A DNA stretch of 64,000 nt from contig JALHMY010000002.1 in NCBI GenBank assembly GCA_022843805.1, positions 62,001 to 126,000 on the forward strand. Reading direction: 5' to 3'. Made by a program: the position numbers and the translations under genes. Positions 26,089 through 56,940 of the stretch are shown here, in pieces. Every line of letters begins with the position of its first letter. The first letter of the stretch is position 1. The stretch comes from Fuerstiella sp. (GTDB lineage Bacteria > Planctomycetota > Planctomycetia > Planctomycetales > Planctomycetaceae). The notes under the pieces are model-generated. The model had not been told where the DNA came from. It saw nothing but the letters and a program-made list of their open reading frames with translations, and ran no database searches.

Positions 26089-26408
26089 GAGCGATCGAGC
26101 AAATCCCTTATCGCCGCGATTCAAACAGGAGGTCACGGAGAAAACAGAGGAGTCACTGCGAATACGCCGGGTGATTGTTCATCTCCGTTTCCTGTGTTTC
26201 CTCTGATACAAATCCGAAGATTCCCGTTGACCTTAATGCGGACGCTTAAGAAACGGTAGCGGCCTTTCCAGGGGCTTCGAATACCTTTCATCTCATCCTC
26301 AGTCGCTGCCGCCTGTGTGATCTGTAATGGCATGGCCGGAGCACAGTGAATTCGGTTTGGATTTTCTGATCGAGCGTTACGGAATCAGGCACCGCGTGGA
26401 TGCGACAT

Positions 26409-26511
26409 CGGCGTGCTGATGGGACGTGTCCGAGCATCCGTTTGAATTCGCTCGAATGAAACGCTCAGAGAACGAACTGCCGGGAAGTGAGGTTCCCTTT
26501 GAGTGCGGGCC
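26409..26511 (+). pseudogene. decayed miniature copy of the zinc-ribbon gene 27653-28153
   Basis: 26409-26430 matches the start region of the intact gene (CTGATGGGACG around the ATG, 27645-27660). 26431-26460 resembles its late part (GCATCC-TTTGA, then CTC-AATGAA). 26463-26511 matches its last 49 bases at 28113-28161 with four differences (GAACGAACTGCCGGGAAGTG is identical). The middle of the gene is missing. Only the two ends survive, so this is an internally deleted, non-coding copy. Confidence 0.7.
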
Positions 26512-26526
26512 GTTGTGATACTGGAT

Positions 26527-26654
26527 AAAGTAGCCATCACTCTCCGAGTGATGAACTGCGATTCCTGTTCCCGGTGTTAAATCATCAGCCCGCTCACTAC
26601 GTAACAACCCGCTGAAGAATCGCAAAGCGTCACTCGGAGAGTGACGACTACTTT
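26527..26654. repeat. REP pair upstream of the RAYT gene
   Basis: REP at 26527-26563 carries stem ATCACTC/GAGTGAT with a TCC loop. An inverted REP at 26618-26654 carries CACTCGGAGAGTG. Each is bounded by AAAGTAG at the outer end and CGATT/AATCG at the inner end, so the two face each other as a BIME-like doublet. The same doublet occurs downstream of the gene at 27356-27483. Confidence 0.9.
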
Positions 26655-26696
26655 GCGTAACGACAACTTCGCGTGATGTCTGTATGGGACACGGCT

Positions 26697-27362
26697 ATGG
26701 AACTGCATTTTTTTGATCCGAATGTGACAGCATCGATCCTTTATCGAAAGCTGCCGCACTGGTCACAGGCCGGGGTTGTCTGTTTCATTACATTCCGTTT
26801 GCATGATTCGATGCCTCGCGAAGTTGTCGATCGCTGGCGAGGGGAGCGAGCGGGGTGGCTCATTCGACATGGCATCAATCCGAACAAGCCCGCCTGGCGA
26901 GATGACCTCCAGCAACTGGACCAGCCACTTCAGGCCGAGTTCTATGCGACCTTCTCGACACGGTGGCACAATGAGCTCGACAAATGTCACGGTTCATGTG
27001 TTCTGAAAGACACTGCGAATTTCCAAATTGTTGCCGAGAGTTTCCTGAAGTTTGATGGAAAACGATACTGGATGACGGATTTTGTGGTGATGCCAAATCA
27101 TACGCACATGCTTGTTGTCTTTCCGAATGATGATGTAATGTTAAGTCAGTGCGCATCATGGAAGCGATTTACCGGGCGACGAATCAATCAGGGATTGTCT
27201 GACTCCGGACGATTCTGGCAACAGGATGGGTTTGATCATCTTGTTCGATCCGAAGAGCAGTTCGAACATTTTCGTCGATACATTGCCGACAATCCGACGA
27301 AAGCCGGGCTCCACGCGGATGCCTGCTGTCTGTACTCAAATTCAGATGCCGGACTAAAGTAG
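26697..27362 (+). CDS. REP-associated tyrosine transposase (RAYT, Y1/HUH family)
   Basis: 221 residues from ATG 26697 (GGGA site nearby; ATG 26676 and GTG 26673 are longer options). RAYTs are single-strand HUH endonucleases of the IS200/IS605 group that cut beside REP hairpins. The metal-binding HUH motif is MPNHTHMLVVF (His135, His137; here Thr replaces the usual hydrophobic middle residue). The catalytic tyrosine is in FRRYIADNPTKAGL (Tyr195). The helix carrying HGSCVLKD and the segment YWMTDFVVMPNH are typical. The stop codon TAG lies inside the downstream REP, so gene and repeat are fused. The substrate REPs flank it on both sides. Confidence 0.92.
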   Translation: MELHFFDPNVTASILYRKLPHWSQAGVVCFITFRLHDSMPREVVDRWRGERAGWLIRHGINPNKPAWRDDLQQLDQPLQAEFYATFSTRWHNELDKCHGSCVLKDTANFQIVAESFLKFDGKRYWMTDFVVMPNHTHMLVVFPNDDVMLSQCASWKRFTGRRINQGLSDSGRFWQQDGFDHLVRSEEQFEHFRRYIADNPTKAGLHADACCLYSNSDAGLK

Positions 27363-27483
27363 CCGTCACTCTCCGAGTGATGAACTGCGATTTTTCCGCA
27401 CATCCTGAAGCGAACAACTGAGTGAAGCGATGACGACATCGGGCGGAATCGCAAAGCGTCACTCGGAGAGTGACGACTACTTT
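27356..27483. repeat. REP pair downstream of the RAYT gene
   Basis: REP at 27356-27392 and an inverted REP at 27447-27483, nearly identical to the upstream doublet and in the same order (outer AAAGTAG, stems built on CACTC/GAGTG, inner CGATT). The spacer sequence differs from the upstream doublet. The transposase stop codon is formed by bases 27360-27362 of this repeat. Confidence 0.9.
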
Positions 27484-27652
27484 GTGGGAAGTGTATTTGA
27501 AGTTCAGGCGGTTTGTGTGAAGAATACGTTCCAGCCCGACGCGGTGTGTCCGGGCAAACTGTGTTGACGATGGTTCGCAGGGTGAATTACGCGAAGGCCA
27601 GGGCGTTGCAGGCAGCGGTTTTCGTTCTAAAGTGAGAGGGAACGGCGGGCTG

Positions 27653-28153
27653 ATGGGACGAGTTTGTGATTGTTGCGGATACGAACGGCCCCATGAGAAA
27701 TTCGGCGGCAAAGGGCGACGCGCGAGAATTTGCAGTGATTGCCGAAAACTGCCCCGGGCTGAACAACAGTTGAATCTCGCAACAGGTGAGATCATCGGCT
27801 TCATGGATCAGAGCAATATCTCTCAAAAGAATATCGCCAGACTCGAAGGTTTCGCTTCGATCGACGATGTCGAGTTTCAGAAACTGCGAATGTTGATTCT
27901 GGAGATTGCCCAACTGGCACCGCGAAGACGCGGGCGCTGGAAACGTCTCGCGGAAAACCGACCGGATCTTCTCTCAGATGCGATGGAGGCAGACCTTATT
28001 GAGGACTCCTTCGAAAGACGCAAGTCCGGGCATCCTTTTGAGGACGCTCTAATGAATGGCTTGGAATACGACGACTTTTTCGACCGGTTCAGCCTGACCG
28101 CGGATACCGAATGCTCGGAGAACGAACTGCCGGGAAGTGAGATTCCCTTTTAG
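27653..28153 (+). CDS. zinc-ribbon-like hypothetical protein
   Basis: 166 residues from ATG 27653 (an upstream in-frame start at 27632 is possible). The N-terminus has two CxxC knuckles in GRVCDCCGYERPHEKFGGKG then RRARICSDCRKLPRAE, a zinc-ribbon arrangement. The middle has a charged helical segment (MEADLIEDSFERRKSGHPFE), and the C-terminus is acidic, ending ENELPGSEIPF. Zinc ribbons bind nucleic acid or proteins; the specific role is unknown. A decayed internally deleted copy lies 1.2 kb upstream, on the other side of the RAYT/REP unit. Confidence 0.7.
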   Translation: MGRVCDCCGYERPHEKFGGKGRRARICSDCRKLPRAEQQLNLATGEIIGFMDQSNISQKNIARLEGFASIDDVEFQKLRMLILEIAQLAPRRRGRWKRLAENRPDLLSDAMEADLIEDSFERRKSGHPFEDALMNGLEYDDFFDRFSLTADTECSENELPGSEIPF

Positions 28154-28231
28154 TGCGAGCCCAGGTTAGCTGCGAGCAGTACGTCCGGCATTGCAGCCTG
28201 TCTTTGCGCTACAGGCTTGCAAGCCCCGCCA

Positions 28232-56817: not shown

Positions 56818-56940
56818 CACGTAGGCGAGTCTCTCTGAGACTCGCAAATGCCGTTGGTCTCTTCGGAAACCCGATGTCGAGAGGCTGCATTGCGCGAGTC
56901 TCGAAGAGACTCGCCTACGTGGGCGCCTCGGAGAGACGCC
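56818..56940. repeat. nested palindromes in a 100-bp inverted repeat
   Basis: 56818-56850 (CCACGTAGGCGAGTCTCTCT then GAGACTCGC) matches the complement of 56888-56921, an imperfect repeat of about 33 bases. Each arm is itself a hairpin (GCGAGTCTC/GAGACTCGC). A third small stem (GGGCG-CTC / GAG-CGCCC) follows at 56920-56941. It sits between the convergent thioesterase and PQQ-propeller genes. Confidence 0.82.

Follow-up and report, generated by a model that had tools for sequence, protein, structure and literature searches.

A RAYT gene between REP doublets in a planctomycete, and sequence evidence that single REPs insert as fixed units

The RAYT gene and its four REPs

The window analysed here is a stretch of 64,000 nt (positions 62001-126000 of contig C2) from Fuerstiella sp. 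genome G000, a 9.2-Mb draft in 172 contigs. It holds a RAYT (TnpA_REP) gene flanked on either side by inverted, GTAG-footed REPs, an arrangement expected of a REPtron (Table 1). The gene likely starts at ATG 26697 rather than at the upstream GTG 26673, because its relatives start at the same conserved MELHFF; 42 nt separate REP 2 from this codon.

Table 1. Features at and around the RAYT locus, in positions of the window
Feature	Position	Strand	Remark
CcbP-like gene remnant, residues 68-97	26321..26410	+	gene intact beside the block in the nearest relatives
REP 1, left REP of upstream doublet	26527..26564	+	GTAGNCRTCACTCTCCGAGTGAYG match 26530-26553
REP 2, right REP of upstream doublet, inverted	26617..26654	-	GTAGNCRTCACTCTCCGAGTGAYG match 26628-26651
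RAYT / TnpA_REP gene	26697..27362	+	ORF open from GTG 26673; ends with TAG
HTH motif of RAYT	residues 143-145, counted from GTG 26673		H, T, H of PNHTHM
Catalytic Tyr of RAYT	residue 203, counted from GTG 26673		YIADNP, a Y---NP context
REP 3, left REP of downstream doublet	27356..27392	+	GTAGNCRTCACTCTCCGAGTGAYG match 27359-27382; gives the RAYT stop
REP 4, right REP of downstream doublet	27446..27483	-	GTAGNCRTCACTCTCCGAGTGAYG match 27457-27480
CcbP-like family C-terminal remnant, residues 113-121 (YLKFRRFV)	27491..27517	+	outside the block; short, and weak evidence by itself
173-aa gene, intact, downstream of the block	27643-28161

The best solved relative of the protein is E. coli TnpA_REP (PDB 4er8, E 1.4e-4), whose H-M-H aligns with the HTH motif and whose Tyr aligns with Tyr203. 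Scores against profiles fell below their cut-offs, for NCBIfam REP_Tyr_transpos NF047646 (64.2 bits, E 1.2e-17; cut-off 80) and, only just, for Pfam Y1_Tnp (19.9 bits; cut-off 23). The protein was absent from the viral contigs searched. The original prediction, a RAYT gene with REP doublets around it and a REP family spread through the genome, is supported by the match to 4er8 and by the 71 exact REP cores described below.

REP 1 is made up of a target-like AAA triplet, the GTAG foot, an 8-bp stem with a TCC loop, and a TGCGATTC box. The pattern GTAGNCRTCACTCTCCGAGTGAYG matches the window four times, and 100 shuffles of the window gave no match. As predicted, the two doublets are nearly identical: their left REPs agree at 97% over 38 nt and their right REPs at 100% over 39 nt, with a spacing of 829 nt in both cases. 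Folded as DNA, both doublets form long hairpins (z about -8), compared with z about -3 for single REPs. The RAYT stop had been placed inside a REP, and it does lie there: the TAG at 27360-27362, which ends the ORF 26673-27362, is within the GTAG foot of REP 3 (27359-27362). The outer boundaries had also been said to match, as evidence of a block, and the AAAGTAG/CTACTTT edges at 26527 and 27483 do agree; however, such an edge is common to every REP unit, and the match is therefore no evidence for a block.

An unusual residue in the active site

The motif had been described as HTH rather than the usual His-hydrophobic-His, and lack of the catalytic Tyr/His set had been named as a possible refutation. 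Alignment of 47 distinct homologues confirmed the former and removed the latter: Thr occupies the middle position, and neither His nor the Tyr is missing. Among the homologues the first His never varies, the other is found in 46 and the Tyr column is kept in 45, while the residue between the two His is V in 37, I in 5, A in 4 and T in 1; the three homologues that form the subclade of the window have T or A there. At this position, published class 2 proteins carry L, V, I, F, Y or M (PMC6006769), a set outside which HTH lies. The protein thus departs from the strict HUH motif and fits the relaxed form HxH, so that we place it in the RAYT / TnpA_REP group by its catalytic residues and its Tyr, together with its association with REPs. 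Judged from the alignment, HTH is a substitution in an otherwise complete active site. It could also be taken as the mark of a decayed relic, with the REPs kept for another reason (as terminators or mRNA ends), but the reading frame is intact, the two His are in place, as are the Tyr and the conserved Trp/Gln, and the closest relatives, 74-75% identical, are likewise intact. We consider decay very unlikely.

A recurrent arrangement in the clade

RAYT homologues (E<1e-20) occur in 50 of the 170 genomes of the family, and the relatives that have named records are planctomycete metagenome assemblies. REP-like hairpins (TCC/GGA loop, GTAG foot) lie on both sides of the gene in 34 of the 47 homologues by manual count of the listing. 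A strict test for doublets on both sides was passed by 11 of the 47; it misses the window because one REP stem there has a mismatch. The RAYT gene stops on the TAG of its REP's foot in at least 13 of the 47 (12 and the window), and since stem sequences vary between lineages, this arrangement recurs with different REPs. Across the homologues compared, doublets on both sides and a stop within the foot recur in the clade.

These features have precedents. Inverted REPs around RAYT genes have been published (PMC2817692). GTAG REPs often supply the TAG stops of neighbouring ORFs, and GTAG repeats have been reported in the PVC superphylum together with RAYT genes flanked by REP monomers or dimers (PMC3733652). 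We see no basic difference from that GTAG super-family, except that here the stop within the foot recurs at the RAYT genes themselves, across the clade. The locus is an ordinary REPtron, of a known kind, in a less studied phylum.

In the tree, the RAYTs of G130 and G133, from another genus, are the sisters of the window's RAYT, and that of the congener G011 lies far away; this placement suggests horizontal arrival. Elsewhere in the clade, long arrays of REP doublets adjoin the RAYT genes of G074 (loci L132-L134), where one RAYT-bearing segment is present twice at 98.8% identity.

The 957-bp block as a resident locus

The stretch from the outer edge of REP 1 to that of REP 4 had been proposed to be one movable block of 957 bp. 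A search for it elsewhere in the 9.2-Mb G000 found a single copy, so that the multiple gene-bearing units expected of an IS200/IS605-like element are not seen there. Its DNA was also absent from the plasmids searched. In G130 and G133 the RAYT block has an intact CcbP-like gene beside it; in the window, remnants of that gene lie on both sides of the block (Table 1). With the block set among copies of one CcbP-like gene in three genomes, there is no clear sign that it moved by itself after their last common ancestor. The proposal is not supported by these comparisons, on which the block behaves as a resident locus.

Some observations could still speak for transposition of the entire block as an IS-like element bounded by the outer REPs. 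In most homologues, the gene has REPs to its left and to its right. Two RAYT copies in G101 are 89% identical over 944 nt with unrelated flanks, their right edge coinciding with the end of the outer REP. The blocks of G130 and G133 are 96.5% identical, versus 70-90% for the surrounding matched pieces, and one edge of this high-identity stretch falls at the outer REP. Its other edge, however, lies inside the neighbour gene, as homologous recombination would give. Together with the single copy in G000, the same neighbour gene in three genomes and published work in which REPtrons do not transpose as a unit (PMC6006769), this makes whole-block transposition unlikely. The duplicate in G074, which we had considered as a case of it, was rejected, as it includes a duplicated upstream gene and belongs to a longer duplication. 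In some lineages, block movement or REP-guided recombination is possible, as the G101 and G130/G133 comparisons would allow.

The flanks were examined as well. The CcbP-like gene was rejected as REP-borne cargo, homologues without such REPs being present in G010, G058, G076, G082 and at another locus of G133. In a look for an empty site of the block, its flank genes were not found together in congeners: one congener has a counterpart of the flanking WYL-regulator gene with only 46% identity, and none has the 173-aa downstream gene. A homologue of the latter in G119 (55%) adjoins a lone REP of the same family and offers no usable junction. Short pieces matching the start and the end of the 173-aa gene, both at 90% (52 nt and 21 nt), lie upstream of the block at 26409-26511; by this match they are a decayed duplicate of that gene.

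A dispersed family of mostly solitary REPs

The original prediction called for a genome-wide count of the REPs and asked whether they also occur as solo copies. The 15-nt REP core has 71 exact copies in G000, against none for the reversed control, and the 24-nt form has 76 sites within 3 mismatches. The REPs are therefore not limited to the RAYT locus; the same REPs are dispersed through the genome, as in a REPtron, and nearly all 71 cores are solitary. Only four intact inverted doublets were found among them, two of these at the RAYT gene, and doublets are thus not the dominant dispersed form that REPINs would require. Base pairs at the foot of the stem show A-T/G-C covariation, with a single exception.

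In 33 non-redundant contexts, conservation spans AAAGTAG to TGCGATTC and drops to background outside. The 4 nt preceding GTAG are CAAA in 19 contexts, TAAA in 6 and others in 8 (YAAA in 25/33), and the first of them is a pyrimidine in 30/33 (p about 1e-6 versus one half).

The core occurs in 14 of the 170 family genomes, among them G000 (71), G021 (90), G130 (21), G020 (9) and G133 (6), and has no copy in the three congeners G010-G012. G130 and G133 hold the sister RAYT. No RAYT was detected in G021, whose genome is 79% complete, and this counts against the mechanism proposed below. AGCC replaces TGCGATTC after the stem there; its REPs are therefore probably another type sharing the same core.

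A second GTAG REP family, GTAGGCGAGTCTCTCCGAGACTCGC, is also present, with a doublet in the window at 56821-56845 (+) and 56894-56918 (-) and 141 sites in G000 at up to 2 mismatches. The RAYT type that accompanies similar REPs in G076 and G082 was not found in G000, so this family may be orphaned. A second RAYT, on contig C50, was dropped as its owner; it has REPs on one side only and its protein is of another type. In REP contexts L016, L045, L049 and L066 (and at C59 and C167), often near contig ends, the REP foot is replaced by one and the same sequence ending CAGGCGCACTAG, which is probably an insertion sequence that targets these REPs.

Filled and empty sites

One dispersed host repeat has nine copies with a REP and 13 without. 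Filled and empty copies differ by exactly 35 nt (GTAG...GATTC); once these are removed, the alignments are gap-free, with identities reaching 97% over 120 nt, and the filled copies show no duplicated target bases. All nine carry the REP at one position, and they therefore record only one clean insertion event, which later spread with its repeat. In a tree of the repeat copies, the deep lineages are all empty; towards the tips, where support is weak, filled copies are mixed with empty ones, so that excision, or recombination or exchange among copies, is possible. We infer that the change at these sites was insertion rather than excision.

Further left junctions were found in an RHS-repeat gene (PF05593) and at one other locus, where the REP-less homologues read CCAA, GCAA and CCAAA; the clean filled/empty site reads GATA. 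AA, AAA or ATA thus pre-exist at four pre-insertion sites, which suggests an A-rich triplet that is part of the target and a REP unit that starts at GTAG, give or take a nucleotide. The right side at the RHS-repeat gene and the other locus is not a simple continuation of the gene, and these sites therefore inform on the left edge only. Many REPs lie within fragments of an RHS-repeat gene (L260:4624-7035 and further contexts), joined to a common downstream stretch, the intervening part of the gene being missing.

We take these alignments as evidence that insertion is not confined to doublets, and that single REPs, too, enter as a unit of fixed length that leaves the target unduplicated. A short search of open papers found no report of single-REP empty sites, and one may have been missed.

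The REPs might have spread mainly as passengers of longer repeats (the second REP family, the RHS fragments) or by gene conversion, with the RAYT dispensable. A long downstream stretch is indeed common to 27 of the 62 distinct REP contexts, and the many REPs within longer repeats may have been carried along with them instead of transposing themselves. The nine filled copies travel with a composite repeat of which the second REP family forms part. Yet the 33 non-redundant contexts have only the 38-nt unit in common and nothing outside it, and the family is missing from the congeners and present alongside the sister RAYT. On balance, passenger spread appears improbable as the main route.

Comparison with known systems and proposed mechanism

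The gammaproteobacterial REPtrons (E. coli Ec, Stenotrophomonas Sm, Marinomonas Mb) likewise combine a Y1 HUH enzyme bearing the Y---NP signature with GTAG-footed REPs in inverted pairs around the gene, and have one gene copy and many REPs; REP_Sm also has an 8-bp stem and a 3-nt loop (PMC8266576). The present system differs in its planctomycete clade, in the one nucleotide between GTAG and stem, in the conserved 3' box TGCGATTC, in HTH for a hydrophobic middle residue, and in its mostly solitary REPs with sharp 3' ends. The REPINs of Pseudomonas fluorescens (Bertels and Rainey 2011, PMC3116915) are also RAYT-linked REP doublets folding into hairpins, and there the doublet is regarded as what moves and the singlets as its remnants; here, in contrast, there are only the four intact doublets, two at the gene, and solitary units with sharp ends and a filled/empty pair. 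With IS200/IS605 elements (IS608, ISDra2) the system has in common HUH/Y1 chemistry, hairpin ends and insertion 3' of a short target without target duplication, whereas its gene is not multi-copy and the piece presumed to move is a single hairpin without the gene.

We conclude that the locus is probably a REPtron, in which a domesticated Y1 HUH transposase (RAYT/TnpA_REP) sits between its own REP doublets and would move single REPs while the block stays resident. The gene, the catalytic residues, the REP family, the sharp edges and the filled and empty sites can be read from the DNA; from them we infer that the window's RAYT carries out REP movement and that its substrate is single-stranded DNA. 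Most likely, the RAYT would bind REP hairpins in single-stranded DNA, with the GTAG foot and the stem-loop as its contacts, and cuts are predicted 5' of GTAG and after GATTC. The freed single REP, of about 35 nt, would then be joined 3' of a YAAA-like sequence without target duplication, in the manner of IS200/IS605 transposases. Whether the planctomycete RAYT moves the single 35-nt REP with exactly these cut sites and this target, the doublets being by-products or gene-linked sources, we regard as an even call.

The mechanism of REP dissemination was still called unresolved in 2021 (PMC8266576). Our finding bears on the debate over which form of REP is mobile, the doublet or the singlet, in which the leading bioinformatic view favours doublets (PMC3116915). 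REPs that are nearly all solitary, of fixed length, with a recognisable target and a filled/empty comparison, offer a concrete substrate, cut sites and a target for in vitro work. The planctomycete clade, with its many RAYT/REP pairs of differing stems and 3' boxes, would lend itself to studies of specificity.
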